From positions 558,001-622,000 of the forward strand of contig SGBC01000001.1 in NCBI GenBank assembly GCA_004195045.1: 64,000 nt of DNA, written 5' to 3'. This DNA comes from Candidatus Acididesulfobacter guangdongensis (GTDB taxonomy: Bacteria; SZUA-79; Acidulodesulfobacterales; Acidulodesulfobacteraceae). The translations under genes were made by a program, and so were the position numbers. Within the stretch, counting starts at the first letter, position 1. Every line of letters begins with the position of its first letter. Of the stretch, positions 23,578-42,189 are shown piece by piece. The notes under the pieces are model-generated. The model worked only from the letters and a program-made list of their open reading frames with translations, did no database searches and was not told where the DNA came from.

Positions 23578-26500
23578 TTAATACAATAAAAGCATGTTCA
23601 ACAAATTTACTTCATTAGAAATATTAAAATATTTATCATTGAAAATTATATTAAAATTTGTCGGGTCTGCCCCTCCATAGCACGCCGCCCATGGAAATTC
23701 CGCATATTTCGGCATTACAGGCAAAACTATATTGCCTTTAGAAAATGCCTGCCTCAAGTTTTCCAACCATAAATCTCCATATCTCAACGGTTCAGAAACT
23801 TCTTCCTGATTAAATGTACGAGGCGGATAATCTTCAGATCGTTCGAGCTCCTGCCGCCTGATCATGAATTGCAAATATGCCGCCGGCAGCGCAACCCATA
23901 TTCTTTCTGAATTTATTTTCTTGCCTAAGCTATTTAAATGATTTCCTTCGTCGGTGTTTAAAAAATATTTTATTTCTTCAACGGCAGTTAATAATTCGTG
24001 CGGAAGATTTAACTGTTTTTTGTTCGCTCCAATACTCACAGATTTCAATAAATTAAGCGTTTTCTTAATTTTATCTTCAGCGTCGTTAAAATTTGCATTA
24101 TTAAAAACAAAATTTTCTGAAGATGAAAAATCAGACCAGTCTTCAATTATTAAAGGACCCTTAAAATACATACTATCTGGAATATTAAAAAATCCTTCCG
24201 AATTCTTATTTTTTAACAACAGAAGAATATTCGGATCGCTTAATTTCTCCAGTAACTTTTCTGCGTATTCTTTGCTTGCGCAAGACTTTGCGCCATCATC
24301 ACTACAGCAATTAGACTCAAGTCTGAAGTTTAAAAAAATACTTTCTATATTTTTAATCAATTCTTTAAAAACCCCGAAATAATCAGAATTTGTATTTCTC
24401 GCTATCATTCTGTTTGATTCTTTTAAAAATATGTCGACACTGTCCGATAAAGAGTCGGAAATATACTCATTTTCTATTCTTCCGACGGGAACAAACGATA
24501 TTTTTTGTTTTAATCCTGAATCTCCGGTTATTCTTGTAAATATTGAAGACCTCAGCATTATAATAAATGTTATAAGATCAACTGACTGCCTTAACCATCT
24601 CCTCTTCATAATTTGTTTATTTTCTTCCTGCTGCAAACTATCGCTATAAGCATTTTTAATAAAGTAATCATTTACTAACATTATGATTTTTTTGTCTAAA
24701 TCATCCCCTGAAACTTTCTGCCCGTTTTCATCCGTAAACGCTCCTCTCCCCCTATAAATAAGCTGAACTATTTCCATTAACGAAGATGCTATATTAAAAT
24801 TCGGAACCAACGTAATAATTGTATCAGTTTTCGGAAAAGATATACCTCTTCCGCCGGAACTTGTCATAAGAAATACTCTCGTTGCGTCTCTTATATTAGG
24901 GCTTACCAATCTTTCCCTTTCTATTGCAGAAACGGAAGAATCTAAAATTTTAACATTGTCTTCATTTAAAATAAGTAAATTTTTATCAGTTAATCCTTTG
25001 GTTTTATAATATTCAAGAAGCTGCAGTTTTAAATCAGAAAGGTAGTTCTTATCTTGAGCAAAAAATATTATTTGATTAGATTCATTTTTTTTAACGGCAC
25101 TTGCAATTTCATCTACACAAATGGATAAATTTTTATCCCTGAAATTTTTATTTATCGATTGCTCCTTAGTATCTAAAATTCCGGTTCCTTCTTTATTTTT
25201 TCTTTCGTTCAATTCTATGTTGGACATTTTAACCTTGTAATCAATTTCTATGTTTTTAGCAGGAAAACTATTCGCCATAACATGTATAGACTTATATGTA
25301 CGCATGTTTATTCTCAAATCGTGTATCTTCAGGTCAATACATCTTTTTCCTCTGGATGGAGATATTAAAATTTTTTCAGGCGAAGTTTCTTCTGAATTTA
25401 AAAATTTATCTAAAACATTCTCGTTATTCAATGATGCATCTGATATAATAAGCGAAATTTTAAACTTGGATGCGCCGGAATTTCGTGCATTTCCGACATT
25501 GTTTAGCGGTTTAAACGGATCTGCAAACTGCTTTTTCAACCAGCCTAATATTTCCTTCACAAATAAAGAACCTGAATCGCTTCCAGTTATTTCATCCGCC
25601 ATGACAATTATATTCGGAATCCGTTCTGCAAAACGCATTCTTTCTTCTCTCATAGCAGACGAACCGGATTTGTTGCTTGCAAAGATTTGATCCAGCGCAT
25701 CTACCGTGGATGATTGAGCTGAGCCGCCGTTCTTTTTATTTTTAGTTAATCTATAGCCCTGAAGAGCGAACGATAAAACAAAACGATTTATATCGATATT
25801 GGAACTCATTATATCTTTTAAGGCATTAGCGAGACACCTTATAACACCAGACTTAACCCGCGTATTTACCTTAAAATCACCCTCAAAAATTTCATTTTTT
25901 TTATATTTGTTGCCCCCATATCTATTCTCAATTTCTTTTTCTTCTTCTTTAGATATAACTAAAATTGAACCTTCGGGTTTTTTAAAGGTTTTTTCATCCA
26001 TTCCGTCGGCAACTACGCATCCGCTGAGAAATCTATTTTTTTCGGTAAAATTCTTTGCATACAATTTGTCGAAAGAATTTATTAGTCTGGAATTTGACGT
26101 CAGTGTAACGCTTTTTTTTAAATTATTTTTGAAACTGGCAATTTTTTGTGTAACATCTCTGTTAATTACAACCCTGGGACTTGCATAAATGAACAGATAA
26201 CCCTCTTCAAAACTGTTAAGATAATCAATTAATGCCGTCGTTTTTCCAATCCCGGGATTTCCTTCAAGCGCTAGTATATTTACAGAACCAAGCTTTTGAT
26301 ATTTTAATATGATTTTGATAAGAGACGCATGGATATCCCTCAATGTAACACCGTTATTTTTATGATTAATAATGTTAAGCTGCTCTGTAATAATTTCTCT
26401 AAAAGTTTTTGGCAAATCTACGATAGACGAAAAAGGCTGCAAATCTGACAGATTCGGATAATTATCGTCTGTCAATTCTTCCGGCAATAATTTTATAGCT

Positions 26501-27945
26501 TCTTCAACGGTAAACAGCTGCGACATGGAAAAATAATCAGAACTGCCCTCCAGCCGTTCGCTGAATTCTAATGCTAAATCCTGCCCATTATTTATATTGT
26601 CTATATATTCGTCTAATTTACCTATTTCTTTAATGCCGTTGTATAAATCCTTTGGAAGTTTATTAAAAATACCGTTGCGCAGAAATTTTTTTATGGATAA
26701 CTCAACATCGTCAGACTGTTCGTCTTCAAAATTATTTTCTTTATGTTCGGGAATATTTCGATAAGCTTCGCCTAATTTCTTCATTAATTGGAATTTTATA
26801 TAATTTTTATTATTTGTGCCTTCCTTGATTTGACGAAAATCTGTAAAATTTTTGCCTGTATCGCCATAATTCTGTGATGCCGCACTAAACTCAACATCTG
26901 ATAGGTCATGTTCGGAGCATGTGGAGGAAATGCTTTCGACACCCACCGGCGTTAATGCTAAAGCAGTTATGTCAAGTAGCCCGCGGTCTAATTTATTAAA
27001 ATATCGTAAAACTGGAACAGAATTATAAGCATAGCTGCATGCCTGGCATAATTTGTAAAAAGGTTTGTCTTTTGAAGTGAATGCAGACAGATAGGAGCTG
27101 ATATCATTAGACAGATCAAATGATTCGCCGTCTACTTCAGCAGATATATTTGTAAATACACTTCTTGCATTTATATATGCCCAGTAATGCATAATCTCTT
27201 CTAAATGAGCTTTTTCATCGTTAAAATCTTTTATGCCTCCGGCAAAATCTGTATTATAGGAATACTCCTGAATGAGCAGGTAATCTTTATATTTATCTAT
27301 ATTGCCATTGCCGACGCCGTCTTCGGCATAAATGCCGTTTTTATAACTGTCGTATTTTTCTTTATTATTTGTATATATTTTATTTTTTTTGTTTTTCAGA
27401 AAAAGTATAAAATCTGCATTGACAGGCATCCCGCGACCGCTGATTCTCAATCCGTTTTCGGACAACGAAGCAATGTCGCCGAATTGTCTGATAAAATTTC
27501 TTGCAGTTTCTTCCATGGTTAATTTTACGCTATCATTATCATTCTCGTTGTCAGGAACAACTAAAGGGCACCACAGAAAATCTAAATCAAGATATTGGGT
27601 TAAATCAGATATCTGGGTACCGGGAAAATCTTTACAGATATTTTTTAAATACTCCCTCGTAACAGTAAACCCATTACCGAAAGCAAGAATCGACATATGC
27701 TCCAAAACACGCTTAAACAGGGACTCAAGGTTCTCATCTGTCAATGAGCATGATTTTATTACCGACAAATAAATGCTGTTGAGATTTTTGGTTCTCCAAT
27801 CTGCCAGTACAGATGCCGGCTGAAACAAATTTTCGTCTAACATGTTATTTTCAGTGAGACAGGCAAGTACACCCCTTTTTGCAAAAACTTCGTAAGCCTG
27901 CCCAAAGATAGACGCGATAGATGTTTTGTGTGTAAAATTTTCCAT
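23578..27945 (-). CDS. Giant superfamily 2 helicase-like ATPase (1455 residues), second gene of a two-gene module
   Basis: I do not recognise the family. The central region has helicase motifs: Walker A EGNPGIGKTTALIDY at about residue 560, a DEAD-like VMADEITG at about 780, a motif III-like ISLIISDAS, a motif V-like TSSGGRGISFP, and a motif VI-like IVQLIYRGRGAF near 1065. The N-terminal ~540 residues contain a segment (MPVNADFILFL, then LLIQEYSY about 50 residues later) faintly like a PD-(D/E)xK nuclease core but without the Lys. The C-terminal ~390 residues are unassigned. It lies 40 bp downstream of the 1146-residue gene, so the two are probably co-transcribed. Conserved ATPase motifs argue it is functional. 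Type I Cas3 is unlikely: there is no HD domain and no Cascade genes. A role in defence is inferred from its position beside a type III CRISPR locus. Confidence 0.6.
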   Translation of the reverse strand: MENFTHKTSIASIFGQAYEVFAKRGVLACLTENNMLDENLFQPASVLADWRTKNLNSIYLSVIKSCSLTDENLESLFKRVLEHMSILAFGNGFTVTREYLKNICKDFPGTQISDLTQYLDLDFLWCPLVVPDNENDNDSVKLTMEETARNFIRQFGDIASLSENGLRISGRGMPVNADFILFLKNKKNKIYTNNKEKYDSYKNGIYAEDGVGNGNIDKYKDYLLIQEYSYNTDFAGGIKDFNDEKAHLEEIMHYWAYINARSVFTNISAEVDGESFDLSNDISSYLSAFTSKDKPFYKLCQACSYAYNSVPVLRYFNKLDRGLLDITALALTPVGVESISSTCSEHDLSDVEFSAASQNYGDTGKNFTDFRQIKEGTNNKNYIKFQLMKKLGEAYRNIPEHKENNFEDEQSDDVELSIKKFLRNGIFNKLPKDLYNGIKEIGKLDEYIDNINNGQDLALEFSERLEGSSDYFSMSQLFTVEEAIKLLPEELTDDNYPNLSDLQPFSSIVDLPKTFREIITEQLNIINHKNNGVTLRDIHASLIKIILKYQKLGSVNILALEGNPGIGKTTALIDYLNSFEEGYLFIYASPRVVINRDVTQKIASFKNNLKKSVTLTSNSRLINSFDKLYAKNFTEKNRFLSGCVVADGMDEKTFKKPEGSILVISKEEEKEIENRYGGNKYKKNEIFEGDFKVNTRVKSGVIRCLANALKDIMSSNIDINRFVLSFALQGYRLTKNKKNGGSAQSSTVDALDQIFASNKSGSSAMREERMRFAERIPNIIVMADEITGSDSGSLFVKEILGWLKKQFADPFKPLNNVGNARNSGASKFKISLIISDASLNNENVLDKFLNSEETSPEKILISPSRGKRCIDLKIHDLRINMRTYKSIHVMANSFPAKNIEIDYKVKMSNIELNERKNKEGTGILDTKEQSINKNFRDKNLSICVDEIASAVKKNESNQIIFFAQDKNYLSDLKLQLLEYYKTKGLTDKNLLILNEDNVKILDSSVSAIERERLVSPNIRDATRVFLMTSSGGRGISFPKTDTIITLVPNFNIASSLMEIVQLIYRGRGAFTDENGQKVSGDDLDKKIIMLVNDYFIKNAYSDSLQQEENKQIMKRRWLRQSVDLITFIIMLRSSIFTRITGDSGLKQKISFVPVGRIENEYISDSLSDSVDIFLKESNRMIARNTNSDYFGVFKELIKNIESIFLNFRLESNCCSDDGAKSCASKEYAEKLLEKLSDPNILLLLKNKNSEGFFNIPDSMYFKGPLIIEDWSDFSSSENFVFNNANFNDAEDKIKKTLNLLKSVSIGANKKQLNLPHELLTAVEEIKYFLNTDEGNHLNSLGKKINSERIWVALPAAYLQFMIRRQELERSEDYPPRTFNQEEVSEPLRYGDLWLENLRQAFSKGNIVLPVMPKYAEFPWAACYGGADPTNFNIIFNDKYFNISNEVNLLNMLLLY

Positions 27946-27985
27946 TAGATTTTATATAACCAGACTTTTTTATAGCAAAAAATAC

Positions 27986-30900
27986 TTATTGATGCAATTT
28001 ATGCAAAACATTTTTTACATTAGTAAGCACTGCAGAAAATGAAAATACAGCACGCGCTTTATCGCTGTTTAAGTGCAAATTAGTTTCGCCTGCTTCGCCA
28101 ATATAATTTATATTCGTAAATGCAAACGGATTTAGTTTTGGAAGAAATTGTTTTTTAGAAGAGATTTTTTCTCTTTCTATAAAATGCACGCCTCTCAGCA
28201 AAAAGATTATACTGTTGTAAACATCCTTATCTCCGGTAATGCCAAGTATATTCGCTCTAATTTTTTCATAAAGAACTTCATCTGAAAATTTTGCCTCGCT
28301 ATCAAAAAAATACGTGCAGAAACCGGATTGTGGATAGTATGCTTCATCATAAATTGACAATGTAGCAAACGTGTATATAGGCAGTGAAGTCTTATATAAT
28401 GAAGATGACATCCTCCTGTCGTCGTACATTTTGTAATTCTCAGAAAACGATGATATCTCAAATCCACTTTCATTCTCATTGTCCCTTTTTCTGAATCTGG
28501 TTGCAGAAAAAACATCTTTTCTCAGGGGATAAATAAAGACATCGCTTATCTCAATATTTTTTATATAATCGAATGTAGAATTTAAATAATTATATTCGCT
28601 GCTGTCCCGGAGTATGTGATGTCTTTCAAATTGATGCGATAATAATATAATATGATTGTAATTTTCATTCTTTAGCCTTGCTATTTCTTTTATTATATAT
28701 CTGGGATGTTCAAAAAAATCATTGTCTATAAGATTTACGTCCGTTTTATCTAAGAATATAGATAATTTGTCATCCATATCGGTATTTAACTTATAGGTTT
28801 TTACAATCAGCATATCGGATTTATTTCCAGAATATGTATTTACAGGTCTCGTTATATAAGATATAAGAGCCGTATTATTTTTAATATTGTTGACATATTG
28901 ATAATCATCATCTTGACGCTGCATAGAGCTAATAGAGCTAATAGAGCTAACAGAGTCAACAGAGCTGTCTGCAGCAGCATTTTGCACACGGCTGTCTTGA
29001 ACTTTCCCATCGTTTAAAGTGAAAGCTAAAGTAGAATTTCTATCTGTTTGCTGGACAATATCAATATTTTTAGATTGTTCACTATTATTAAAAACAGTGC
29101 AATTCTTGTCTTTTTTAGCTATTACAATAGGAAAACCTCCCTGAAAAGCAACAAAAGCGCTTCTCTTACGCCATTTTATACTATCGTCGTTCTGTCTCTC
29201 ATTAAGATTATAACCCTGCATTTTAACTAAAAGCTCATTAGAAAGGATGAGTTCTATTGCGTGGCACATGGCATAAAATTTTTCATCCCTGCTAGGATAA
29301 TCATCATCATCCTGCAAACGCAAAATATGAACTTTAACATTTTTTGATTCTAAACCGTTGTTAAGACCCTTGATTCTGTTTATAATATAATACGATATAA
29401 GATAGACTATTATAGACAAAGCTGAATAATTGCCGACGGAAAAACTGTCTGAAAACTTATTTCCGGTTTTTGTTAGGGTTTTGCTATATAGCATGTTTAA
29501 GTCTATTTTATATCTAAAATTAATACCGGGATTTAAACATGCTATATTTTTTTTGCCTGTTGTATGCCAATTTTTATAATTTTCCTCCGGTACAAAACTT
29601 ATAACGAGAACTTTATCATCCAAATTTCTTTCAATTTTAAAGTTTAGCGGTTTTTCTGCCGATTTATGCAGTATTTTTTCTTTGATTGCAGCCTCTATCT
29701 CAACCGTTAATATGGAATTATCGTTCAATCTGTTTATGTCTATATTTCTGCTTTTATCTACAACATCTATATATCTATACCAATTTTGATAGCATCTATC
29801 GTCTTTCAATGAATTTCGCCGGCTTGGATTTTTAAAAATCTGCCCTTCGCCTATTGAATCAATATCTATAATATCGGCATCTAATTTTAAATAAAAATTA
29901 TTTATAGCAGAACTTAAATTTTCTCCGAGCATTTTTTTATTTTTCAATATTACCGAAATTTCAGACGCTATATCATCTACAATCTTGTCTTTATGACTTT
30001 TTTTAAGACAGTCAATCATATATCTGATTGTTTTTTTCGGATTGTCTTTTAATCTTGTAATTAAATCGTTTAAAACTTTTTCAAAATCGTCTGCATTCAT
30101 CGTCTGCCGTTCAGAACCGCATTCCGGATTATTAGACGGGATAACAAGATATAAAAGAATGAGGCTTGATAAATTCTTTTTCACTATTAGATCTTTCAAA
30201 TAAAAATTTAATGCCGCAGACGCTGTATTGTTAGCTGAATTACTATTAATGCTGTCGGACAGATTCAAGTTTTTATATAAATTTTGTTCTATTTTTTTCA
30301 ACCTTGATTCAAATGAAGATTTGCCGGTATATATATTTTTTCCGTTTAATTTAAATCTATAAGTTATCTCCCTTTCAGTTATATACCCGTATTTTAATTC
30401 TGACAGCTGAACAACCCAGTCCGCCCATACCGGCAACGCCTTATAAAAAGACACGGAATCTGCGTAATCCTCAAGCGGAAAAGCAAAATTAAGCCCAAAA
30501 TCTCTGCTTATATCAATATAGTAGCTTTTTCGGTTATCAGTTAAAAATCCAAAGAATAATTTAACGTTATTAATATAACATTCTAAATTTTTAGATATAT
30601 TTTTCTGATAGCTTAAAATTTCCATCAATTTGAATGTTACCCTTAATCGCACTCTGGAAAGAGCATCTCCTGAAATAAAATTTAAAAGTTCATCTACTTC
30701 ATTATCTGGTTTATTTTTTTTTATCTCTATAGATTCAACAATGGATTCAATTATATCTTCTTGAAATTCTTCTGATTGAAGTTTTTTCTTGATGCCGTTA
30801 ATAATATTGCCGTAGATGTTGCCGTCTTTTACTTTTTCTATAACCGTAAAAACACGTGCTAAACTATGTTTAACGAATTCTTCTGATTTTATTTCGTCTG

Positions 30901-31426
30901 CATCGACAAATCTTATCGGCACGAGCGCTGCACAATCACCCCTATTTATGCTGCTGTTGACAAATCTATCATCAAAACCCATCTGTTTTGCTAAATTAAA
31001 TATTGCCGTTTTAGAATTTTCTGTAAGCAGAGAACTTATTTTATTATCATCTAAGGTTATGGATAATTTTGAAGATATTAAATTATATAATTTTTCAACA
31101 TTTTCAGAAAAAGATTTTTCAGTATCCGGATGAATGTAGCCGCCGATTTTATGAACTTTTTTATTTTTAATTCTGCCGGTTAATTTATTAAAACCGCTTA
31201 TAAAACCATTTTCCGTGTCATCCAGAAATCTTTTAAACTCCGTGTGCTTAGACAAAGCGAACAGGAACGATTCCAATCCAATATCTAAAATATGATTATC
31301 TTCGTCGAATTTGAAATCGAAACATTCATCCGTCGATTCGGATAGTGCTACGGTTATTAACTTAACAAGCTGCGATAAATTAACACACGGAATTTTACTG
31401 TTTAAAGATATAGACGCGCCTTCCAT
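27986..31426 (-). CDS. Giant protein of unknown function (1146 residues), first gene of the helicase module
   Basis: There is no recognised domain. The N-terminal half is mostly helical and charged; residues ~610-800 alternate strands and helices (VLVISFVPEENY, NVKVHILRLQDDDD, SAFVAFQGGFPIVIAKK), then a low-complexity Ser/Asp linker (~840-870) encoded by a 9-bp tandem repeat. The C-terminal ~280 residues again look like an alpha/beta fold (HPRYIIKEIARLKNENYNHIILLSHQFERHHIL, then DVFIYPLRKDVFSATRF) and end with a conserved-looking LPKLNPFAFTNINYIGEAGE. The size and the large helicase partner recall PIWI-RE-type or similar defence islands, but I cannot see the diagnostic residues and do not claim that identity. 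The gene starts 567 bp from the divergent CARF gene. Confidence 0.55.
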   Translation of the reverse strand: MEGASISLNSKIPCVNLSQLVKLITVALSESTDECFDFKFDEDNHILDIGLESFLFALSKHTEFKRFLDDTENGFISGFNKLTGRIKNKKVHKIGGYIHPDTEKSFSENVEKLYNLISSKLSITLDDNKISSLLTENSKTAIFNLAKQMGFDDRFVNSSINRGDCAALVPIRFVDADEIKSEEFVKHSLARVFTVIEKVKDGNIYGNIINGIKKKLQSEEFQEDIIESIVESIEIKKNKPDNEVDELLNFISGDALSRVRLRVTFKLMEILSYQKNISKNLECYINNVKLFFGFLTDNRKSYYIDISRDFGLNFAFPLEDYADSVSFYKALPVWADWVVQLSELKYGYITEREITYRFKLNGKNIYTGKSSFESRLKKIEQNLYKNLNLSDSINSNSANNTASAALNFYLKDLIVKKNLSSLILLYLVIPSNNPECGSERQTMNADDFEKVLNDLITRLKDNPKKTIRYMIDCLKKSHKDKIVDDIASEISVILKNKKMLGENLSSAINNFYLKLDADIIDIDSIGEGQIFKNPSRRNSLKDDRCYQNWYRYIDVVDKSRNIDINRLNDNSILTVEIEAAIKEKILHKSAEKPLNFKIERNLDDKVLVISFVPEENYKNWHTTGKKNIACLNPGINFRYKIDLNMLYSKTLTKTGNKFSDSFSVGNYSALSIIVYLISYYIINRIKGLNNGLESKNVKVHILRLQDDDDYPSRDEKFYAMCHAIELILSNELLVKMQGYNLNERQNDDSIKWRKRSAFVAFQGGFPIVIAKKDKNCTVFNNSEQSKNIDIVQQTDRNSTLAFTLNDGKVQDSRVQNAAADSSVDSVSSISSISSMQRQDDDYQYVNNIKNNTALISYITRPVNTYSGNKSDMLIVKTYKLNTDMDDKLSIFLDKTDVNLIDNDFFEHPRYIIKEIARLKNENYNHIILLSHQFERHHILRDSSEYNYLNSTFDYIKNIEISDVFIYPLRKDVFSATRFRKRDNENESGFEISSFSENYKMYDDRRMSSSLYKTSLPIYTFATLSIYDEAYYPQSGFCTYFFDSEAKFSDEVLYEKIRANILGITGDKDVYNSIIFLLRGVHFIEREKISSKKQFLPKLNPFAFTNINYIGEAGETNLHLNSDKARAVFSFSAVLTNVKNVLHKLHQ
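28924..28968. repeat. 9-bp coding minisatellite
   Basis: Five tandem units of TAGAGCTAA or close variants encode the Ser-Ser-Ile/Val linker of the 1146-residue protein. Unit number could change without breaking the frame, altering linker length. Confidence 0.75.
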
Positions 31427-31727
31427 AATTTAAAATATATCTATTTTAATTTGCTTATTATTTAATTTTATTATTATTATTTAATTTTATTATTATTTAA
31501 TTTTTAAATTTTATTGTATTTATATATTTATTTAACTCTCCGCCGAGAAGTCCTCATCCGTAGGGGCGATTATGATGGGCGGTATTCGGTATTGTTACTT
31601 ACGCCGCTTTTCTTTCCGTTATCCGGCTGTCATACTGCCTATAGTATTTATTTTATGAATTCATTTTTGCATTTTCTATGTATTATACTATAACATATAA
31701 TTTACCGTAATAAAAATAATAATAGAA

Positions 31728-31800
31728 TAGATAGGTAGATAGATAGATAGATAGGTAGGTAGGTAGATAGATAGATAAACAGACAGATAAGTAGATAGGT
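31728..31800. repeat. GATA/GGTA-type tetranucleotide microsatellite
   Basis: About 18 imperfect units of TAGA/TAGG in tandem lie between two divergent promoters. It is non-coding; length variation could alter promoter spacing. Confidence 0.8.
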
Positions 31801-31814
31801 AACGTTTACAGATC

Positions 31815-31832
31815 AAAAACAACATTGTTTTT
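31815..31832. promoter_or_regulatory. 18-bp palindromic site, copy 1
   Basis: AAAAACAACATTGTTTTT has perfect 8-bp arms around CA. The same 18 bases, plus one flanking C, recur at 41284-41301 upstream of the cas10 operon. It sits about 25 bp before a TATAAT that faces the CARF gene. Confidence 0.55.
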
Positions 31833-31993
31833 AATTAGTTCACTGTAAAATTTGTTATAATTTAATCGTATTCATATTTCTATAATTTTCTATATTTTTT
31901 ATTATTTTTTATTATTTCGATTCAATCTTGTTCTACAATAAGCAGCAATAAGTTAAATAAACGACTAAACAACTCATTTATTATGAAAATATT

Positions 31994-33127
31994 ATGAAAA
32001 CTATATTGGTATGCGTAGCCGGAATAACACCGCAGATTATTACAGAAACATTGTATTATTATCTGATTGAGAAAAAACCTCCTATATGGATAGATGAGAT
32101 TTATGTACTTACTACTTCAGTCGGGAAAGAAACAATAATCAATTCACTTTTAAAAAAAGAGCATGGAGTATTTTATAAATTTTTGTCAGATTTCCACATC
32201 GGCTTCCAGAAAATAAAATTTAATGAGAATTCCGTGATTCAGCTCGGCGGAGATTCATATATTAAAGATATTTCGACAGATATGGACAGCGCTGTCATCG
32301 GCAATGAAATAGTAAATTTTATAAAAAAAATAGCTATCGATAAAAATACGAGGATTATATGTTCTATCGCAGGCGGCAGAAAAACCATGGGCGTTTATTT
32401 GTCTTTAGGTCTGCAGCTATATGGCAGGGAGCAGGATATACTTTCTCATACTTTAGTGTCGCCTGATTTTGAATCCACAAAAGACTTTTTTTACATTCCT
32501 CCGGTTCCAGAAAATATTGGGATAAAAGATAAAAATGGAAAAATTATCAAAATTATCAACACAAAGGACGCTACAATAATGTGTTCAGAAATAATATTCG
32601 TCAGACTTAGAAATTTTTTAAATATCAAAGATGAATTATTTTACGATGACCTCGTAAACATTGTTCAAAAAAAGGTGGACTACTGCGGCACAAAGCTTAT
32701 ATCTATAGATTTAAAAAATAAGGCGCTTTTGCTTGGAAATAAAAAAGTTATTTTAAAACCTATTGAAATTTGTCTCTACAATCTCTTTTTGTCGAATAAA
32801 AAGATGTGCGTGCAGGAATTTTGCGGCGATTGCACGGATTGCTACATGTCTTTAAATGAAATGCGTTCGCAGGAAGTATATAAAAATATTTTAAGATTTT
32901 ATAATATTATTTATACTGAAAATAGCGGACAATATGAACGCTTAAAAGAATCTTTTAAAAATGACGAAAAAGGAGAGGACTTTTTCAGCCAGAATATTTC
33001 CAAAATAAATAAAACATTGAAACAGCATTTAAATCCTTTTGAATTTGCGGTTTATAAGATTTCCAAAATGGGTAAATATAACAAAAGGTACGGTATTTAC
33101 GTTGATAAGAAAAATATTCTGTCGTGA
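31994..33127 (+). CDS. CARF-domain protein of the NE0113 family (ring-nuclease-like), C-terminal winged-helix-like domain
   Basis: This 377-residue protein has an N-terminal CARF fold. The first strand and loop read MKTILVCVAGITPQIITETLYYY, and the second nucleotide-binding motif is IICSIAGGRKTMGVYLSLGLQLY near residues 122-144; this pairing is typical of the NE0113 family, annotated as Csm6-type ring nucleases. The C-terminal ~170 residues contain VILKPIEICLYNLFLS, similar to a winged helix, and a CGDCTDC cysteine cluster. I find no HEPN R-x(4-6)-H motif, so an RNase role is unlikely. It may bind or cleave cyclic oligoadenylate and so switch off or regulate the response. Transcribed on the + strand, it converges on csm5 with only 2 bp between stop codons. 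Confidence 0.75.
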   Translation: MKTILVCVAGITPQIITETLYYYLIEKKPPIWIDEIYVLTTSVGKETIINSLLKKEHGVFYKFLSDFHIGFQKIKFNENSVIQLGGDSYIKDISTDMDSAVIGNEIVNFIKKIAIDKNTRIICSIAGGRKTMGVYLSLGLQLYGREQDILSHTLVSPDFESTKDFFYIPPVPENIGIKDKNGKIIKIINTKDATIMCSEIIFVRLRNFLNIKDELFYDDLVNIVQKKVDYCGTKLISIDLKNKALLLGNKKVILKPIEICLYNLFLSNKKMCVQEFCGDCTDCYMSLNEMRSQEVYKNILRFYNIIYTENSGQYERLKESFKNDEKGEDFFSQNISKINKTLKQHLNPFEFAVYKISKMGKYNKRYGIYVDKKNILS

Positions 33128-33129
33128 AA

Positions 33130-34302
33130 TTATAAAAATTCTACTTCTATCCAGCCTATCGGTTCTTTATTCTCATTAATCCAAAGCGAACTTTGATATG
33201 CTGCTTTATTTGTAATTATTTTACCGTTCTTTTGTATAGTAATTTCCCTAATTTTATCCAAGCTTTTTGAACCTCCTCCGCCAAGTCTTCCAAGCTTTAA
33301 GATATTTTTATTTTTATCTAATTCAAATTTAAAATTTTCAGCATATTTAAATCTTTTACTTTCAATATCGTAAATTTGAGAACCGAATTTTTGTATTGCT
33401 TTCATTAGAAGCTCCTTTAACGTATTTTCGGGTTTCTCTTTAGGTATTCCGATATTAAAAAGCAAAGGCATTCTATCTGCAAAATTAGATTTAATAAATT
33501 GGTCGTCAATATAAATTTCACCTTCAAACGATGTGTTCTTACTAATTGACTCAAGCAATACTGGCATATGGGTTACATTGCCGGATTTATTTAAATTATT
33601 CGGACGGATAATTTTTATATAATTCAAATTATTATTTTGGGTATCACCGGCAGAAAGTTTAAAATCGCTCACATTAATCAACCGAAAGATATCGCTTTCA
33701 AAACTTCCGGTTATATTTTCTTTAATATATTTATCTACAATTTTAATTTTTTCATTAATTGTACGTGTTTCCTTTTTTTTTAAATCTGTTTCGCGGCTGA
33801 ATGATCTTTCTACTTCTAATAATTCTTTTTTAATATTTGCCGCTGTGTTTTCATTATTATCTAACATATAAGACTGAAAAGCATTTTTTAAGGCTCCCTT
33901 AAAACTGCTTCCCGGAATATACGGCTGTTTATCTAACCCTCCTCTTATAAAACAGTCCACAGGGGCACGGAAAGGCTCTTTAATATTTTTATCCAGGTAA
34001 TTAAAGGCTGATTCTGGTGCATCTGCATCTGAATCGTCGATAGGGATTTTATATTCTACAAAATCAGTACAAGATTGAGAATAAATATTCATTAATTGTT
34101 TAAAATCGAATGTTCCTGAAGATGTTAAACTCAATAATGCTCTGTAGTAAAACCCGCCGTAAATTTTATCCATATAATCTGATTTATTTATAAAATTTAA
34201 GGTTTTTCCTTTTTCATCTATAAAATAATCGGTAGGATAATAACTTTCACCGTTACCTATAAACAATGAAGTAAGCGTTGTAATTTTTACTTTAAAATTC
34301 AT
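33130..34302 (-). CDS. csm5: Type III-A CRISPR RAMP protein Csm5
   Basis: This 390-residue RAMP-fold subunit caps the 3' end of the crRNA in the Csm complex. The N-terminus FKVKITTLTSLFIGNGESYYPTDYFIDE and the glycine-rich PYIPGSSFKGALKNAFQSY match Csm5. The C-terminal LGRLGGGGSKSLDKI is the usual RAMP glycine loop. Last gene of the cassette, 6 bp after csm4. The order cas10-csm2-csm3-csm4-csm5 is canonical for type III-A. Confidence 0.9.
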   Translation of the reverse strand: MNFKVKITTLTSLFIGNGESYYPTDYFIDEKGKTLNFINKSDYMDKIYGGFYYRALLSLTSSGTFDFKQLMNIYSQSCTDFVEYKIPIDDSDADAPESAFNYLDKNIKEPFRAPVDCFIRGGLDKQPYIPGSSFKGALKNAFQSYMLDNNENTAANIKKELLEVERSFSRETDLKKKETRTINEKIKIVDKYIKENITGSFESDIFRLINVSDFKLSAGDTQNNNLNYIKIIRPNNLNKSGNVTHMPVLLESISKNTSFEGEIYIDDQFIKSNFADRMPLLFNIGIPKEKPENTLKELLMKAIQKFGSQIYDIESKRFKYAENFKFELDKNKNILKLGRLGGGGSKSLDKIREITIQKNGKIITNKAAYQSSLWINENKEPIGWIEVEFL

Positions 34303-34308
34303 AATATA

Positions 34309-35319
34309 TTATTCTCCTATAAAGAAAAACGGTATAATATATCCGCTATGCCAGTAATCGTTATATTTAGAAGCAAACACATTTTTAATAGCGTTGCCGT
34401 AATATTCTTTTTTAATGAGCGGCTTAAAAGTTGAACCAGGTGTCAGAAGCACTACAGGATTTTTAAAAGGAGTGTCACTGCTGGCAGCGGTACCGCCCAT
34501 TTTTGGAAATTTAGCATGGCTCTGTATAAATTTATATTCTAATAATTCGTTTTTATCAATATTTTCAACATAACCGTTAGATAAAGACATAATCCAATAT
34601 AGAACAAAATCATCGTCTGGAGGAGGAATTAGCAGTTCCTTTTCTTCAAATTCTTCTTCTATTGAAAAGTTAAATTTTCCTTTGCCTGTAGATTTGTCTT
34701 TTCCAAAACCGTTTTTTCCGATTAGATTAAATACCTCTTCAATTTCGTCTTTTGTAATCAACGAAGTTGAATATTTAACAAATATATTAAGCTCTGTATC
34801 TTTAGAATAAAAAGTTTCTTCAACGGTAAATAATTTATTATTAGAATAATCTCCTAATCTATCTATATAATTTTTTTGAATAATAATGTTAGTCGTCTGT
34901 TCAACGTTTTCTTCAAATCCGCCTCTGATATTGTCTCCTTTAGAAGTCTGTTTTTCATCAATCCTTCTGCGAATTAAATCGTTTATCTGCGTTAATGTAA
35001 GCGCTGTCTTTTTATTCTCATTGTCTTTTAATAAATTAATAAAATCTGTTTTATCTAATAGTGCTGTTTTTTTAATGTCCTTAACGTTTTTATCGTTTAA
35101 CATAACCGGTTTTAAATAAGGTTTTGGCAATTTATCCGCAAAAAAAGCATTGCTGAATACAACAAAAGGCTCTTTATCAAAATTTTTTAATAAATCTACG
35201 AGCCTATTTTCTCCGTATTTATATAAAAGATTCCAGCAGAAAACACCAAAAAGCGTATCGCTTTCAATCTTAGTAACAAAACTTGATGTCGGTTTAATTT
35301 CTATCTTCAGACAATTCAT
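34309..35319 (-). CDS. csm4: Type III-A CRISPR RAMP protein Csm4
   Basis: This 336-residue RAMP protein contacts Cas10 and the 5' handle of the crRNA. It begins NCLKIEIKPTSSFVTKIESDTLFGVFCWNLLYKYGE, typical of Csm4/Cmr3-type proteins. Mid-protein it has the glycine-rich GKNGFGKDKSTGKGKFNF, and later NPVVLLTPGSTFKPL. Its place between csm3 and csm5 supports the call. The gap to csm3 is 97 bp. Confidence 0.9.
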   Translation of the reverse strand: MNCLKIEIKPTSSFVTKIESDTLFGVFCWNLLYKYGENRLVDLLKNFDKEPFVVFSNAFFADKLPKPYLKPVMLNDKNVKDIKKTALLDKTDFINLLKDNENKKTALTLTQINDLIRRRIDEKQTSKGDNIRGGFEENVEQTTNIIIQKNYIDRLGDYSNNKLFTVEETFYSKDTELNIFVKYSTSLITKDEIEEVFNLIGKNGFGKDKSTGKGKFNFSIEEEFEEKELLIPPPDDDFVLYWIMSLSNGYVENIDKNELLEYKFIQSHAKFPKMGGTAASSDTPFKNPVVLLTPGSTFKPLIKKEYYGNAIKNVFASKYNDYWHSGYIIPFFFIGE

Positions 35320-35416
35320 TATATTATCGTCCTTATAAAATAATTTTTTATCAAATCAAAAATAAACAGATACTTATTTCTAAATTAAACAATTTAAACT
35401 GTTAAAAAAACACAGT

Positions 35417-36166
35417 CTATTTTTTGATTTCCTGTTCAATATCTTTCAAATCTTTCAGAATATACACATTGCTCCCGTTGTCATCTGATTCTAATTTTGT
35501 TGTAAAATTTTCTATACTTACATTATTTTCAAATTCAAATTTTATTTTTCCATATCCTCTTGAACCGCTTCCGCCTAAAGCTGTAAGCTCTAAAAGTTTT
35601 AAACCTAAAATTAAATATTTGAAATTTTGTTTATCAATATCGTTAAAAACTAAATAGCTCAAACTGAAATCAAACTCGGCGCCTGCAGGAACTCTTTCAA
35701 TATTTCTTGGTCCTGACTTGGAAGCTGTGCCGGAAAGTCTGTTAATAGATACTTCAATTTTTTCTTCTGTTAACGCATTCTTTTCAATCATTTTTTTTAA
35801 ACTTTCTTTACTTAAAGGGCAATCGTTAAAACTAACTCTGGTTGGTCCGCCGTGATAATTTTGCTCAGCGCTGCCGTTACCAAAAATTAAAGTGATCTCA
35901 TCCCCGTCGCCCTCTTTAACAAAGTGTGGCGTTCCTTCTCCTTTATTGTTAATACCAAATGTTCCTAAATACCATTCAAGCAGCGTTCTTATTTTGCCTT
36001 TTAAACTGCTCCCCGGTATATAAGGTTCATCATTTAAAGGATTTTTTATAACTGGATTATCTATTCCGCCGATATGAATTTCATCGTTTCCCGCACCTAT
36101 ATGAAGACCGGAAATAAGTTTTGTTTTACCTTTTAACTCTTTTATTTCTATTAATTTTTGAATCAT
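35417..36166 (-). CDS. csm3: Type III-A CRISPR backbone RNase Csm3
   Basis: This 249-residue Cas7-type backbone subunit cuts target RNA at 6-nt intervals. The catalytic loop is GNDEIHIGGIDNPVIKNP, with Asp36 in the position of the catalytic Asp of characterised Csm3 proteins, followed by EPYIPGSSLKGKIR. The C-terminal GGSGSRGYGKIKFEF is the RAMP glycine loop. Motifs are intact, so target RNA slicing is expected. Good GGAGG ribosome site; 161 bp downstream of csm2. Confidence 0.95.
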   Translation of the reverse strand: MIQKLIEIKELKGKTKLISGLHIGAGNDEIHIGGIDNPVIKNPLNDEPYIPGSSLKGKIRTLLEWYLGTFGINNKGEGTPHFVKEGDGDEITLIFGNGSAEQNYHGGPTRVSFNDCPLSKESLKKMIEKNALTEEKIEVSINRLSGTASKSGPRNIERVPAGAEFDFSLSYLVFNDIDKQNFKYLILGLKLLELTALGGSGSRGYGKIKFEFENNVSIENFTTKLESDDNGSNVYILKDLKDIEQEIKK

Positions 36167-36327
36167 ATTATATATCCCTCCTTAAACTTAATTTATATAA
36201 TTAAACTTAGTTTAATAAAATTAAGATAATTTAACATAATCAACGTAATTTTATTTATTATTTCATATCCGTTAAACATATAGCTATATTAATCAAAGCG
36301 GTATAACAATACACACCGTCTTTAAAT

Positions 36328-36879
36328 CTACTTTGGCAGCGTTCCGGTGGAATATGCAATTATAGATTCGAATAGCGTACAGAATATATTATAATCTTTA
36401 TTTGTTTTCACAAGATTTAAAACATTATGCTTAATAAATTCATTTAAAAACATGGTTATATGGTCTCTCTGGCAAGCGTAATTTGCCTTTGCGGCTATCA
36501 TTTTAATATAAGGAAGCTCTTTTTGAAATTCCAACTCCGGGTTTTTGCTGTATTCTATCTTATTTTTGATTGTTAAAATGTCGTTATAAAAACGTCTTAA
36601 TTGAGTAATTTTATTTTGACCTTCTTTGCCTGTACATGTACTACCTCTTTTTGCAATTTGATTAACTATTTCTTCAGCTTTTTCGCTGAATAAATTAACA
36701 TTAATATTTTTAGCTTCGCCTATTTCGTCGTAATATTTAATACTATTTATAAAATTCTTTGAATCAGCGTCTAACACTTTTTTAGAGTATTGCTCATGTC
36801 TATTATGACTATTACTATTTTGCGATGATTGATTTTTTGGATTATTATTATAAGATTTATTGCCAAATTTGTTATCCAT
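36328..36879 (-). CDS. csm2: Type III-A CRISPR small subunit Csm2
   Basis: This 183-residue all-helical protein has an Asn/Ser/Lys-rich disordered N-terminus (~45 residues) followed by EKAEEIVNQIAKRG..KITQLRRFYNDILTIKNKI and LPYIKMIAAKANYACQR, characteristic of Csm2. It lines the inner face of the complex. It is somewhat longer than usual because of the N-terminal tail. The start follows AGGAGG. Confidence 0.9.
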   Translation of the reverse strand: MDNKFGNKSYNNNPKNQSSQNSNSHNRHEQYSKKVLDADSKNFINSIKYYDEIGEAKNINVNLFSEKAEEIVNQIAKRGSTCTGKEGQNKITQLRRFYNDILTIKNKIEYSKNPELEFQKELPYIKMIAAKANYACQRDHITMFLNEFIKHNVLNLVKTNKDYNIFCTLFESIIAYSTGTLPK

Positions 36880-37006
36880 TTATCCTCCTAACTTCTTAAT
36901 TTACTTAATTTATTTTATTGTATTATTATTAATATATAAATTATCAATATATAATATATTGTTATGAATTTTTAGATAAATTTTTTGATATTTTTTATCT
37001 TAATTT

Positions 37007-39706
37007 TTATTTTCTGTTTTCATATATTATTAGACTTAAAAGAACTTTTAATTTGTCCGAAAACTTTTCTATATCGTAGCCTATTCCCTTCATACTATTT
37101 TTTTCGGATTCATTTATTTTTTTATTTTCCTCAATTTTTCTGGCTGTATGATACCTTAACAGAGCTTTCCATTTTGCATTTTCAAGAATACTTTTTTTAT
37201 TTTTTAAATTTTTTTCCATTTCAATAAACATTAAAATCTTATAAATATACTGCACTGAAGTAGCGTCATAAATAGACTTATATCCATCATATTTCCCTAA
37301 AATCTCTTTTAACTCATCATTTCGCATTGTTGTTTGAAAAATTCTTACTGCGTTTTTTCCGTCCAATTTTTTGGCAGCCGTTAATTCTTCTTCGGCGATA
37401 TCCGCAATTTTTATGAAAGGGACATCTGGTTTGATTAAAAAAATACTGTAGGATACATGAATATAATCATTGCCGCCGATAAATTCTATAAACGTCTTAT
37501 TTATTTCCCTCCATAATTCAACTATTTCTTTGTAGTTTCCTATTAAAAATAAATCATCGCCTCCGGAAAATACAGTATAAACATTTTGATATTTATCTTT
37601 TATTAATTTTTGAATTTTAAATGTGAAAAAATAATCAATCATTCTAGACAGAGAAATAACTTTCGGAAAATTAATCATATCATTTTTTTTATTTTCTGCG
37701 CTATCGTCAGCATCAAAATTTTGATTAGTCTCTTTATTTAAACATTTTTTAAACCCGTTTATAAATATTTGACCCATATTATCAATATCGGCTTTTAAAA
37801 CACCGAGAAATTCCTTGCCGGATATAATTTGCTCTCCGCTGTTTTTAATGTTTCTGTCCTCATCCGCATTTTTATAATTTTTATTAGTTATATTTAAGGC
37901 GGATGCGGCTATATGATAAAAAGTTTTTACAGATCCTTCGTCTATTTTATCCAGCTTATCTTTATACTGGTCTTCTATTTTTTTATATCTGATATCATCA
38001 ATATCCTCTTTATTAAATACCGGTATGTAATTGACAATACGTTTTTTTGCAATTCCCATAAACTCGTCGTCGTAATCCGTTATATCAAAATAAATATCGT
38101 CATTGTTTTTCAAGCCGACGCTTAAAGAATTATTTAAATTATTAATATTTTTATTTCTCAGCGAATCGTTGTTTGTTAATTTTATTGATTGCAATAACCA
38201 GTTAATATTATTATTCTTATCCGGGTCGGAATTTATATTCAATTCAATTAGATTTGTTTTTGGAATTTTTTCTCCGTTATCTTTAAATTTTTTACATATA
38301 TTGCATATATGTAAATCTTCTTCTTTTACATAATTCTGAGCATCGGCGGGATGTTCGCCGCAAATATCGCAAACTTCGTTACCTGCTTTTGATATGCTAT
38401 TAATGTAATCTTCATATACATATCTGTCATGGATATACCGCAATTTTGCTTCTTCAAATTTTAAACTTAAACCTTTATAAACTGAACTAAATTGTCCAAG
38501 CTTAAAATACTCCTCGCCGAAACAGTAAGTTGCAATTATAAATTTTGTTTTGCCGAATGTTAACTGCTCCATTTCTTTTTTTATAGATTGCTTAAATTCA
38601 TCGATAATATTATCCAGACCGGAGAAATTTTGGGATAAAATAACAAACTTTCCTCCAGCGTTTAATACAATAGAGGAAGGCATTAAATCTAATTTTTTAC
38701 ACAATCTATGCGCTATATTTTCTGTAGCAGTCGATACAAATAAAGACCTTGCTCTAAGTATTTTTGCGACATATTTATTTGAATCGCCTTTTAATGAGAA
38801 AATAAAATCCTGTATGCCGGAAAAATCTCCTTGAATTAAACAAAAATTGTTTTTTTCTTCGTTGCTGCTATCTGAGCTAATATAATTATTGTGATTACCG
38901 TCACCGCCCTGTTCATCTGATTTCAATTTTCGTTGATTAAGGAGAGCGTTCGCAATAGCTGCGACGGCTATTGAATGGTCTGCCAAAGAACTTTCAGGAG
39001 AAGTATTAAAACATGAAGCCGGAACTAGTGAAAAATATTTTTCATTTAAATACATTAAAGAAGTTATATAATTTCTTTCATTAAAATTACTTCCCACAAA
39101 TATTATTTTTTTTAAATCGTTAATATATCTTTCATATAAGCTTAGATAATGTTTTTCGGCTTCTTGTTTTTCATAATCTTTTAAATTATCGTCAATAATA
39201 TACGGTTTCGTTTTATAATTTAAGATATCAACATCGTATATTAAAGTGGGCTGTTTTGTTTTATTATAAGTTTTGGCGCCGACATCGGATAAATTTATTT
39301 GAGAAAAAATAGGATTTAATCTGCATAACTTATAATTACTTTGTTTTTTGTATATATTTTTATTTTCATCTTTCAAGTCAATGTCAGCGCCGATACTTTT
39401 TTTGTTTCGGTCGTCTCTGTCTAAACTGCTTGCTAAATGGTCAGCTTTTTGAAGGATTGATTCAAATCCCGAAAGTTCTTTTTTATGATGAGATGAAGCT
39501 AAATCTTTTAAAAAGGGAAATATATCCGGCAAATCGGCATCATCTATTGATTCTGCAGTATGCGCGGCATGAAAATATTGATTATCTACAATATATTGTT
39601 CGTTGTCACGGTTTTTGATTATTTTTCCGCTTCTCTGTCTTACTTTACCAACATCATGGAATAGAGAAGCCACAACAATTTTAAAGCTGTCGCTGAAATT
39701 ATCCAT
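37007..39706 (-). CDS. cas10: Type III-A CRISPR large subunit Cas10/Csm1
   Basis: This 899-residue protein has an N-terminal HD nuclease domain with FHDVGK (residues ~16-21). Next come SSHHKKE, a first Palm region and a treble-clef zinc finger built from CDICGEHPADA and LHICNICKKF near residues 440-470. The cyclase Palm domain has an intact GGDD in YTVFSGGDDLFLIG at about residue 715. Both activities, target-RNA-dependent ssDNA cutting and cyclic oligoadenylate synthesis, should therefore be possible. A D4-type helical domain follows. It lies 127 bp upstream of csm2 and 95 bp downstream of the membrane CARF-like gene, and leads the Csm complex genes. Confidence 0.96.
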   Translation of the reverse strand: MDNFSDSFKIVVASLFHDVGKVRQRSGKIIKNRDNEQYIVDNQYFHAAHTAESIDDADLPDIFPFLKDLASSHHKKELSGFESILQKADHLASSLDRDDRNKKSIGADIDLKDENKNIYKKQSNYKLCRLNPIFSQINLSDVGAKTYNKTKQPTLIYDVDILNYKTKPYIIDDNLKDYEKQEAEKHYLSLYERYINDLKKIIFVGSNFNERNYITSLMYLNEKYFSLVPASCFNTSPESSLADHSIAVAAIANALLNQRKLKSDEQGGDGNHNNYISSDSSNEEKNNFCLIQGDFSGIQDFIFSLKGDSNKYVAKILRARSLFVSTATENIAHRLCKKLDLMPSSIVLNAGGKFVILSQNFSGLDNIIDEFKQSIKKEMEQLTFGKTKFIIATYCFGEEYFKLGQFSSVYKGLSLKFEEAKLRYIHDRYVYEDYINSISKAGNEVCDICGEHPADAQNYVKEEDLHICNICKKFKDNGEKIPKTNLIELNINSDPDKNNNINWLLQSIKLTNNDSLRNKNINNLNNSLSVGLKNNDDIYFDITDYDDEFMGIAKKRIVNYIPVFNKEDIDDIRYKKIEDQYKDKLDKIDEGSVKTFYHIAASALNITNKNYKNADEDRNIKNSGEQIISGKEFLGVLKADIDNMGQIFINGFKKCLNKETNQNFDADDSAENKKNDMINFPKVISLSRMIDYFFTFKIQKLIKDKYQNVYTVFSGGDDLFLIGNYKEIVELWREINKTFIEFIGGNDYIHVSYSIFLIKPDVPFIKIADIAEEELTAAKKLDGKNAVRIFQTTMRNDELKEILGKYDGYKSIYDATSVQYIYKILMFIEMEKNLKNKKSILENAKWKALLRYHTARKIEENKKINESEKNSMKGIGYDIEKFSDKLKVLLSLIIYENRK

Positions 39707-39801
39707 ATAATTACCCTATTTATTTTATTTCATAAATTTTAATATATTTATTTTTATTCCCCATCCATTTATTTATATTTTATTTATATTTGTTTTTATT
39801 T

Positions 39802-40935
39802 TTACTCGGGTGGTTCCATTTTATAAATAGCATTTATTACTTTTATATTATCGCTGTTATCTTGAGACACATACAAGATGGGGCTTTGAGATTTCAATGA
39901 AAAAAATGTGCCTACAACACTGACTAATTTCTGCCCTCCGGTAATATCATAAGCTATTTCGGTATCATTAATTTCTTTATAATTTTCATAATTTTTAATT
40001 TTATTTTTATTAAGTTGTTTACGTTCTTCTTGTATATATTCTTGATAGTATTCTTTTTTAATATCTTCTTCTATCTCCTCAAATATCTCGGAAAGTTCGG
40101 TAAAATTTTCAAAATCATTTAATTTTCTTTTAATTATTTTAATACCATCTTTAGCGTCAGAATTGTTATTAGAGAAAAAAATCTTAATCAATTTTTCTAG
40201 TTTGTCTAATTGGAGGTACGAGCCCTGTTTATTTTTATTATCGTCATTATTATAATTGCCGCTATTATCTGCATTAATGCTGCTTTTTTGAAATTTATTA
40301 TCTGCATTGTTTACTGCGTTCTGTGCATTACATGTACCCAATAAAATAACATACCTTAAGCAATTTGGGTGCTTAGTTTGATTTTTTTTTATTTTATAAA
40401 TAATTTTTAGAGGAACTTCCCAATTAAACCCTAATCTATTTTGTTTTAATCTTTCAAATTTTTTTATTTCATTAAAAAAATCATTTACGCAGTCTATATT
40501 ATTATTGTTATTGTTTTCGTAATTTTTAATTTGAAAACTAAAATCATCCTTAAATTTTATTGAAACTTCCTGTCTGTTTTCTTCAATCTTCAACTTTTCA
40601 TATTCTCTAAATAATGATATCGGCAAAACAACTGCTTTAAATTTATTTTCACCGAGATTTTGTTCATTGGCTATACTATAAAATTTAAATCTTTTTTTAT
40701 TTTTAAAGATTAAATAAACAAGCAAAGCTATGATGATAATTATAATTAACGATTTAACGATAAGAACTAATACTATATTTTTATTTGCAGAAAAAAACAA
40801 ATATCCGGATAAAATATCTATTATATTTGTAAAATAAACGCTCAATATCCCTAATACAACGAGCCATAAACTGATTAAAAAACTTAAAAAGATATAATCT
40901 TTGTGTTTTTTTAATAATTTAATCTTATTATGCAT
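39802..40935 (-). CDS. CRISPR-associated membrane protein with two TM helices and C-terminal CARF-like domain
   Basis: This 377-residue protein has two membrane helices at residues ~13-36 and ~53-78. A cytoplasmic domain follows, with FKAVVLPISLFREYEKL, CLRYVILLGTC, a low-complexity Asn-rich insert and a C-terminal AYDITGGQKLVSVVGTFFSLKSQSPILYVS. The D-x-T-G-G-x-K motif is the nucleotide-binding loop seen in CARF proteins of type III systems. No HEPN, nuclease or protease motif is visible, so the effector activity, if any, is in the membrane part, for example a ligand-gated pore like Cam1 (inference). First gene of the cas10-csm operon; an 18-bp palindrome lies about 350 bp upstream. Confidence 0.65.
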   Translation of the reverse strand: MHNKIKLLKKHKDYIFLSFLISLWLVVLGILSVYFTNIIDILSGYLFFSANKNIVLVLIVKSLIIIIIIALLVYLIFKNKKRFKFYSIANEQNLGENKFKAVVLPISLFREYEKLKIEENRQEVSIKFKDDFSFQIKNYENNNNNNIDCVNDFFNEIKKFERLKQNRLGFNWEVPLKIIYKIKKNQTKHPNCLRYVILLGTCNAQNAVNNADNKFQKSSINADNSGNYNNDDNKNKQGSYLQLDKLEKLIKIFFSNNNSDAKDGIKIIKRKLNDFENFTELSEIFEEIEEDIKKEYYQEYIQEERKQLNKNKIKNYENYKEINDTEIAYDITGGQKLVSVVGTFFSLKSQSPILYVSQDNSDNIKVINAIYKMEPPE

Positions 40936-41511
40936 TATTGAAACATTTAATCATAATTATTTAGATTGGAGGACTATTGAAAAACGTTGAAAACGACTTT
41001 CGATAATATTTGCATAGTTATTCAATAAAATAACAGTTTATATTTAATAGGTATATTTTTTTTAATCTGTAATGTCAAGTAATATTTATAAAAAATTAGG
41101 TTAATAACTGTTAAATAACCCGCTTATATCAAGAAATATCTTATAGCGATAGCGATATAAAAATAAAAAATAATTCAAACCATTAAATTTAAAAAATTAT
41201 AAATTATTTAATTGCAATACACAATGCAATAATAATTATAAATTATTTTATCAAATATAAACAATTTGTCTGTATTTGTAACCAAAAACAACATTGTTTT
41301 TTTATTTAATAATTTAATAATTTCTAAACAAAAAACTTCTTATTTTTTAAAATTTTTTTAAGTTAAAATAATTACATTTAAATATGCGGTTTATCTAATA
41401 ATTCGTAATTTAGAGCGTTTCTGAACATATATTGATTCCAGAACATATATTGAGGAGATTTATTTTGAAAAATTAAGAATTTTTTGATTGCAAAATACAA
41501 TTATAACTATA
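40936..41511. other. AT-rich gap upstream of the cas10 operon
   Basis: No gene is seen in this gap. It contains the second copy of the 18-bp palindrome (41284-41301) and AT-rich sequence likely to hold the operon promoter; I cannot place -35/-10 boxes with confidence. Confidence 0.5.
41284..41301. promoter_or_regulatory. 18-bp palindromic site, copy 2
   Basis: AAAAACAACATTGTTTTT is identical to the site at 31815. It lies upstream of the operon that starts with the membrane CARF-like gene, so the two copies stand before the two transcription units of the csm cassette. Confidence 0.55.
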
Positions 41512-41974: not shown

Positions 41975-42177
41975 AAATACAAAATATTAACATTAAGGTT
42001 ATTGCAAAATTCAATTCATTTTATTCAATTTATTAAGTTATGAAATAATTTAATTATAAATAATTGTATTGTATACAATTTACATAGTTATTTGTTTATA
42101 TACATATAAATTTTACATAGCAATTATACCATGAAGCTATTTTTAAAATCAATAATAATTAATTATGTATTAGCCCT

Positions 42178-42189
42178 CCCCCCCCCCCC
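42178..42189. repeat. 12-base poly-C tract
   Basis: Twelve consecutive C residues lie in otherwise AT-rich DNA. It may be a phase-variable tract or a sequencing-length artefact; no gene is obviously controlled by it. Confidence 0.8.

Follow-up and report, generated by a model that had tools for sequence, protein, structure and literature searches.

A conserved, uncatalogued gene pair encoding a helicase-like ATPase and a giant orphan partner in Candidatus Acididesulfobacter guangdongensis and cyanobacteria

Gene pair at the locus

We analyzed a stretch of 64,000 nucleotides (nt) from Candidatus Acididesulfobacter guangdongensis (assembly GCA_004195045.1, contig SGBC01000001.1, positions 558,001 to 622,000), hereafter the window, in which two very large open reading frames (ORFs) lie side by side on the minus strand. 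One of them (23578..27945) encodes a helicase-like protein of 1455 amino acids (aa), and the other (27986..31426) encodes a protein of 1146 aa belonging to no known family, which we call the partner. A first-pass annotation, made from the sequence letters, had described two co-directional ORFs of these sizes 40 nt apart, and they are present exactly so, with the 40-nt gap at 27946..27985; the minus-strand orientation of both genes puts the 1146-aa gene first, upstream of the helicase gene. These ORFs are not products of chance, because the pair is 82 to 85% identical in a sister species (metagenome-assembled genome YF2.bin53), the ratios of nonsynonymous to synonymous substitution rates (dN/dS) between the window and the sister are 0.137 for the partner and 0.147 for the helicase, and full-length homologues occur across phyla.

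Database searches identified little in either protein. The partner, in which the first-pass annotation had recognized no domain, indeed gave zero matches in Pfam (2025), NCBIfam (June 2026), PADLOC (2023) and the PDB sequences. The helicase matched Helicase_C (PF00271) in Pfam with a score of 30.4 bits (cut-off, 23.5; E, 5e-7); its other Pfam matches were weak, generic P-loop ones, no NCBIfam or PADLOC model fitted the window protein, and a profile search of the PDB yielded a weak match to the DEAD-box helicase Mss116 (E, 0.007). PADLOC 2.0, which covers BREX, DISARM, Druantia, Zorya and other catalogued defense systems, gave no match for the window genes and most homologues, the stray matches among homologues being one weak mad8 (E, 1e-4) and one typeIV_DinG (E, 0.03). 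Searches of PHROGs and of PDB sequences with the pair otherwise returned only noise. Besides, a literature search that left out preprints and most subscription papers found no paper on the gene pair, turning up instead the ApsAB and PIWI-RE systems.

Co-inheritance of the two genes

The two genes behave as one unit. In all 37 loci containing both, they are on the same strand, and in 35 of the 37 the partner lies directly upstream, the end of its ORF falling anywhere from 136 nt within the helicase ORF to 129 nt short of it (overlapping cases in these counts include alternative starts). The two exceptions have spacings of 397 nt and 7.5 kilobases (kb). Homologues thus nearly always recur as pairs, contrary to the refuting condition that the first-pass annotation had set (homologues never paired). 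The partners fall into two clades with about 15% identity between them, which are nevertheless homologous: hhalign aligned them with a probability of 99.9 (E, 7.6e-35) over approximately 950 columns. Distance matrices of partner and helicase were correlated with r = 0.993 (0.994 in clade I and 0.968 in clade II), a value reached by none of 2000 permutations, and all 14 newly found genomes bearing a partner also carry the helicase.

The genes can be apart and yet both present: by 7.5 kb in genome G578, on different contigs in G533, and by about 330 kb in G206. The pair need not be adjacent, because in G578 (locus L069, 15679-18843) a type IIG restriction-modification gene sits between partner and helicase. 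Together with the low dN/dS values, these results show that the two proteins are co-inherited and under purifying selection, and that the partner usually comes first, with touching or closely spaced ORFs.

Distribution

Among 390 genomes of one class, the helicase was detected in 34 (a few of these having it only in fragmentary form); the partner was detected in 41 of the 291 genomes searched from the same phylum. The group sampled is the cyanobacteria, because phycobilisome proteins were found in 31 of the 32 genomes tested, the exception being a non-member, G187; among control genomes, only Synechococcus was positive. In G187 itself (L077, 7494-10244), a distant 916-aa ATPase with a weak helicase match follows genes for 723- and 754-aa proteins and possibly belongs to a different system.

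A tblastn search located the helicase on 11 of 72,556 plasmids, whose hosts include Cupriavidus, Acinetobacter (two), Acetobacter, Nostoc, Trichormus and Aulosira. All seven intact plasmid loci examined have a partner homologue of 1000 to 1200 aa immediately upstream of the helicase. In Acetobacter persici (L011, 14073-18055), the annotation splits the helicase into two overlapping ORFs, reflecting either a frameshift or a two-chain version. Neither a collection of 50,697 phage records nor scans covering 2.9 million viral contigs yielded any relative, and E. coli showed no DNA-level match to either clade.

Remnants were observed in G005, G299, G328 and Stanieria. That in G005, a genus relative of the window organism, consists of a helicase C terminus surviving only as a stop-riddled stretch (L006; G005:C11:54812-55201).

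Motifs of the helicase

Residue conservation, for helicase and partner alike, was counted across 45 non-redundant homologues, and all features of the two proteins lie on the minus strand of the window. The helicase carries the motifs of a superfamily 2 (SF2)-type ATPase/helicase at residues ~560-1068, with flanks of ~540 and ~390 residues, in agreement with the first-pass description. We identified a Walker A motif, GNPGIGKT (residues 562-569; 26239..26262), a Walker B motif, D784-E785 (25591..25596), a motif III-like [SA]DAS (residues 835-838; 25432..25443), a second RecA-like domain that contains the Helicase_C match (residues 947-1065; 24751..25107), and a motif VI-like QLIYRGRG (residues 1061-1068; 24742..24765). 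The core of these motifs (G.PGIGKT, DE, DAS and Q..YR.RG) is invariant. The likeness to SF2 helicases thus comprises Walker A and B, the arginines of motifs V and VI, the RecA2 motifs and a Helicase_C domain above its gathering cut-off, whereas motif II reads DE-x-[TA]-G rather than DEAD or DEAH, motif VI is the QLIYRGRG given above, and the very large flanks have no Pfam match. The C-terminal flank (residues 1069-1455; 23581..24741) holds the invariant residues TRI (1137-1139), G1141, P1153, G1155, Y1414, P1418 and N1447.

The N-terminal region (residues 1-540; 26326..27945) is rich in invariant positions, namely, G15, E19, G25, G92, G172, D178, [DE]227, S229, K294, K298, Q301, Y305, Y395, E463 and H539. 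A nuclease-like motif set can be discerned among them at residues 15-305, ahead of the helicase core; its part at 27031..27432 (G172, D178, [ED]227-x-S229, K294, K298 and Q301-xxx-Y305) is conserved in 45 of 45 sequences, with position 227 divided 16 + 29 between the two acidic residues. In RecB-type PD-(D/E)XK nucleases, the last motif is QxxxY and the usual catalytic residue of the ExK element is lysine. The order D...[DE]-x-S...K-x2-Q-x3-Y resembles that of these enzymes, and we propose that the region is a RecB-like PD-(D/E)XK nuclease-like domain. The first-pass annotation had suggested comparisons with PIWI-RE, Argonaute and PD-(D/E)XK profiles; none of these was significant (values are given below).

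Anatomy of the partner protein

We aligned 36 homologous partner proteins. Positions that stand out are G738, Y1039, H1081, P1100 and A1132 (45/45 each), Q737 (44/45) and E1086 (42/45); they include a Q737-G738 motif at 29213..29218 and a motif from H1081 to E1086 at 28169..28186. The C-terminal half (residues 600-1146; 27989..29629) appears on inspection of the alignment to be alpha/beta and, by the order of its elements only, tentatively MID-PIWI-like. By eye, the last 300 residues recall a MID-PIWI module that lacks the catalytic aspartate, both in the order of their likely strands and helices and in how far QG stands from a strand with [ST]-R at its end.

A low-complexity insertion (window 28877-29113; partner residues ~772-850) is located just ahead of this proposed PIWI-like part; it occurs in the window and the sister species only, the other homologues being without it.

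Membership of the partner among the prokaryotic Argonautes (pAgos) received no profile support, either from hhalign or from hmmsearch, in which reversed partner sequences scored as high against a pAgo model as the real ones. No PIWI (PF02171) Pfam match was found in the partner and no RNaseH_pPIWI_RE match in the window or the homologues.

A possible role in defense

Two described systems, ApsAB and the PIWI-RE triad, are precedents for a helicase/nuclease with an Argonaute-like partner (PMC11096173, PMC3702460). ApsAB, an island-borne antiplasmid system of E. coli ST38, pairs an SF2 helicase having nuclease motifs with a presumably Argonaute-like orphan partner, and DdmDE, a plasmid defense system of V. 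cholerae, consists of a helicase/nuclease and an Argonaute-like partner (PMC11096173). By analogy with ApsAB, DdmDE or PIWI-RE, we propose, with a probability of roughly 0.45, that the gene pair is an undescribed defense module, common in cyanobacteria and sporadic elsewhere, using the partner to recognize foreign nucleic acid and the helicase(-nuclease) to destroy or disable it. The helicase would be fused at its N terminus to a RecB-like PD-(D/E)XK nuclease of altered catalytic center, or to a domain derived from one. The partner would be a giant recognition subunit of a new family, either an independent Argonaute-like class or a new fold; its C-terminal half, possibly a very divergent MID-PIWI-like module devoid of the usual catalytic aspartate, may mediate recognition. 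The partner would recruit the helicase(-nuclease), which would unwind and then degrade or disable the invading nucleic acid. Plasmids and other conjugative elements may be the likelier targets, by analogy with ApsAB and DdmDE, and phages would come second.

We favor a defense role because of the co-inheritance of the genes, the selection acting on them, the ATPase motifs, the patchy distribution with remnants, and the neighboring defense genes. Besides the type IIG enzyme inside the pair in L069, HmaC is found beside the partner in L079, DruE directly upstream in L054, and Mokosh MkoA plus a CD-NTase (CBASS) near the pair in L012; the window pair itself has a type III-A CRISPR (clustered regularly interspaced short palindromic repeats) neighborhood. 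The first-pass proposal of an uncatalogued module is supported to this extent: the module is conserved, often has defense-rich surroundings, and is matched neither by the BREX, DISARM or other models of PADLOC nor by PIWI-RE profiles.

Several observations weigh against this proposal. The lysine expected in the ExK element is an invariant serine (S229) in the helicase N terminus, although K298 could stand in for it; comparison of this region with RecB-type PDDEXK_1 domains was not significant (P, 0.43 to 0.59), and the nuclease assignment is made by motif alone. Comparisons of the partner by hhalign with 28 pAgos (P, 0.14 to 0.91) and with six PIWI-RE proteins (P, 0.5 to 0.66) were not significant either, whereas the positive control, the known distant pair of pAgo and PIWI-RE, gave a P of 0.0084 with the correct region aligned. 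AlphaFold models computed on two-sequence alignments were unusable for the helicase N terminus and the partner C-terminal half (predicted local distance difference test scores, 34 and 31). The defense neighbors are observations at individual loci, and other copies lie in housekeeping surroundings, such as glyS, pheT and histidine kinases. Both the defense role and nucleic-acid targeting are read from motifs and context.

A serious but somewhat less probable explanation keeps the same general kind of defense but sees in the partner, which would not be Argonaute-like, a novel DNA- or RNA-sensing scaffold responsible for helicase loading, on the pattern of BREX- or DISARM-like restriction. It would fit the defense neighbors, as well as the lack of profile similarity between the partner and pAgo, PIWI-RE, or any Pfam, PDB, PHROG or PADLOC family. 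Two weak points speak for an Argonaute-like partner instead: the order of likely elements and the invariant QG, with a subsequent strand that terminates in S/T-R, are reminiscent of MID-PIWI, and a QG is also present within the MID-like motif of ApsB homologues (PMC11096173).

We consider it unlikely that the pair serves housekeeping or the maintenance of mobile elements (DNA repair, replication restart, or plasmid or island upkeep) instead of defense. Such a function could account for the copies often found beside ordinary chromosomal genes, for those borne on plasmids, and for the vertical retention of the pair, which two sister species keep at the same site, but it sits poorly with the patchy presence, the pseudogene remnants, and the repeated siting next to defense genes.

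Comparison with known systems

The pair shares with ApsAB its two-gene make-up, a helicase with nuclease(-like) motifs accompanied by an orphan partner, a conserved QG in that partner, and a location on genomic islands. The details differ, however. In ApsA, the Walker A motif is near residue 218, the following motifs read DELH, SAT and QAVGRVER, and the nuclease motif is C-terminal (D1420...D1433-x-K1435) (PMC11096173), whereas here Walker A is at residue 562, the motifs are DE-x-[TA]-G, ADAS and QLIYRGRG, and the nuclease-like motifs are N-terminal, with serine replacing lysine. ApsB residues are named up to 743 (PMC11096173), compared with ~1000 to 1200 aa for the partners studied here. At the positions matching the ApsB MID motif Y-x3-K-QG-K, the partners retain QG (44 to 45 of 45), with Y in 17/45 and K in 19/45. 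The gene order also differs, the coding sequence downstream of apsA having been taken as ApsB (PMC11096173), while here the partner comes first.

The pPIWI-RE triad has three genes in the order restriction endonuclease, DinG helicase, PIWI-RE (PMC3702460). A helicase, a function of the restriction-endonuclease fold (putative in our pair) and a large protein (~900 to 1000 aa in the triad) are common to both; in contrast, our loci have two genes with the partner first, the helicase has no DinG match in Pfam, and the partner lacks RNaseH_pPIWI_RE. Membership in PIWI-RE is ruled out by the profile comparisons given above and by gene order. The likeness to DdmDE is one of description, a helicase/nuclease plus a large partner; no chain named DdmD or DdmE was matched by the pair profiles in a 2026 copy of the PDB, in which their presence was unchecked, and no direct comparison was made.

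The pair belongs neither to the PIWI-RE triad nor to ApsAB, judging from its motifs, its profiles, and the order of its genes and domains. That it is an unrecognized true member of one of the three described systems is thus very improbable, the similar make-up (a large helicase, a large partner and nuclease-like motifs) being outweighed by differences in gene order, gene number, helicase type and domain order, and by profiles that do not match.

Relationship to the CRISPR locus

The first-pass annotation had placed a type III-A CRISPR locus beside the pair, and csm genes, an array, and Cas2, Cas1 and Cas6 are found there. A CARF/ring-nuclease-like gene (31994-33127) lies ~570 nt from the pair and is divergently transcribed, followed by csm5, csm4, csm3, csm2 and cas10 (33130-39706). 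Upstream of cas10 are a weakly CARF-like protein with possible transmembrane segments (39802-40935; PADLOC CARF_2M; E, 2e-9) and a short AAA_14 ATPase fragment (41512-41829). The array of ~52 repeats extends from 43461 to ~47200, and cas2, cas1 and cas6 occupy 47845-50405. Two successive repeat-spacer units at 45347-45488 look identical, suggesting a duplicated spacer, and cas1 is split over overlapping ORFs (48218-49063 and 49033-49335), suggesting a frameshift or sequence error.

The pair is independent of this locus, because the sister species (genome G004, locus L003) keeps it at the orthologous site without CRISPR. DNA alignment places both copies at the same chromosomal site: L003 1-8167 corresponds to window 58976-50407, and L003 8354-14864 to window 31715-25086. 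The intervening 18.7-kb type III-A locus (window 31716-50406) is therefore an indel, with ~190 nt (L003 8168-8353) in its place in the sister, and the other flank of the pair is also syntenic, on a separate contig (L007). Hence, the suggestion that the pair is an accessory arm of the CRISPR locus, resting on its adjacency and divergent orientation in the window, is contradicted by the CRISPR-free pair in L003 and is the least probable of all the explanations, the more so as no annotated cas genes stand next to the plasmid-borne pairs that have gene tables.

Implications

The gene pair is conserved, uncatalogued and fairly common; the core claim of the first-pass annotation stands, and its CRISPR link does not. 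The partner was found in 14% of the cyanobacterial genomes searched (41/291). Samples of this group drawn in other ways gave 8% (28/339) for Piwi-domain Argonautes and 2.5% (6/242) for PIWI-RE, and yet the partner is without a model in Pfam, NCBIfam and PADLOC. The nuclease-like motif is fully invariant and yet unusual in having serine for lysine, and it is directly testable. If the defense (or antiplasmid) proposal is true, the pair would represent an independent further case of a helicase coupled to a large orphan recognition protein, and, in cyanobacteria, an uncatalogued and frequent obstacle to gene transfer.

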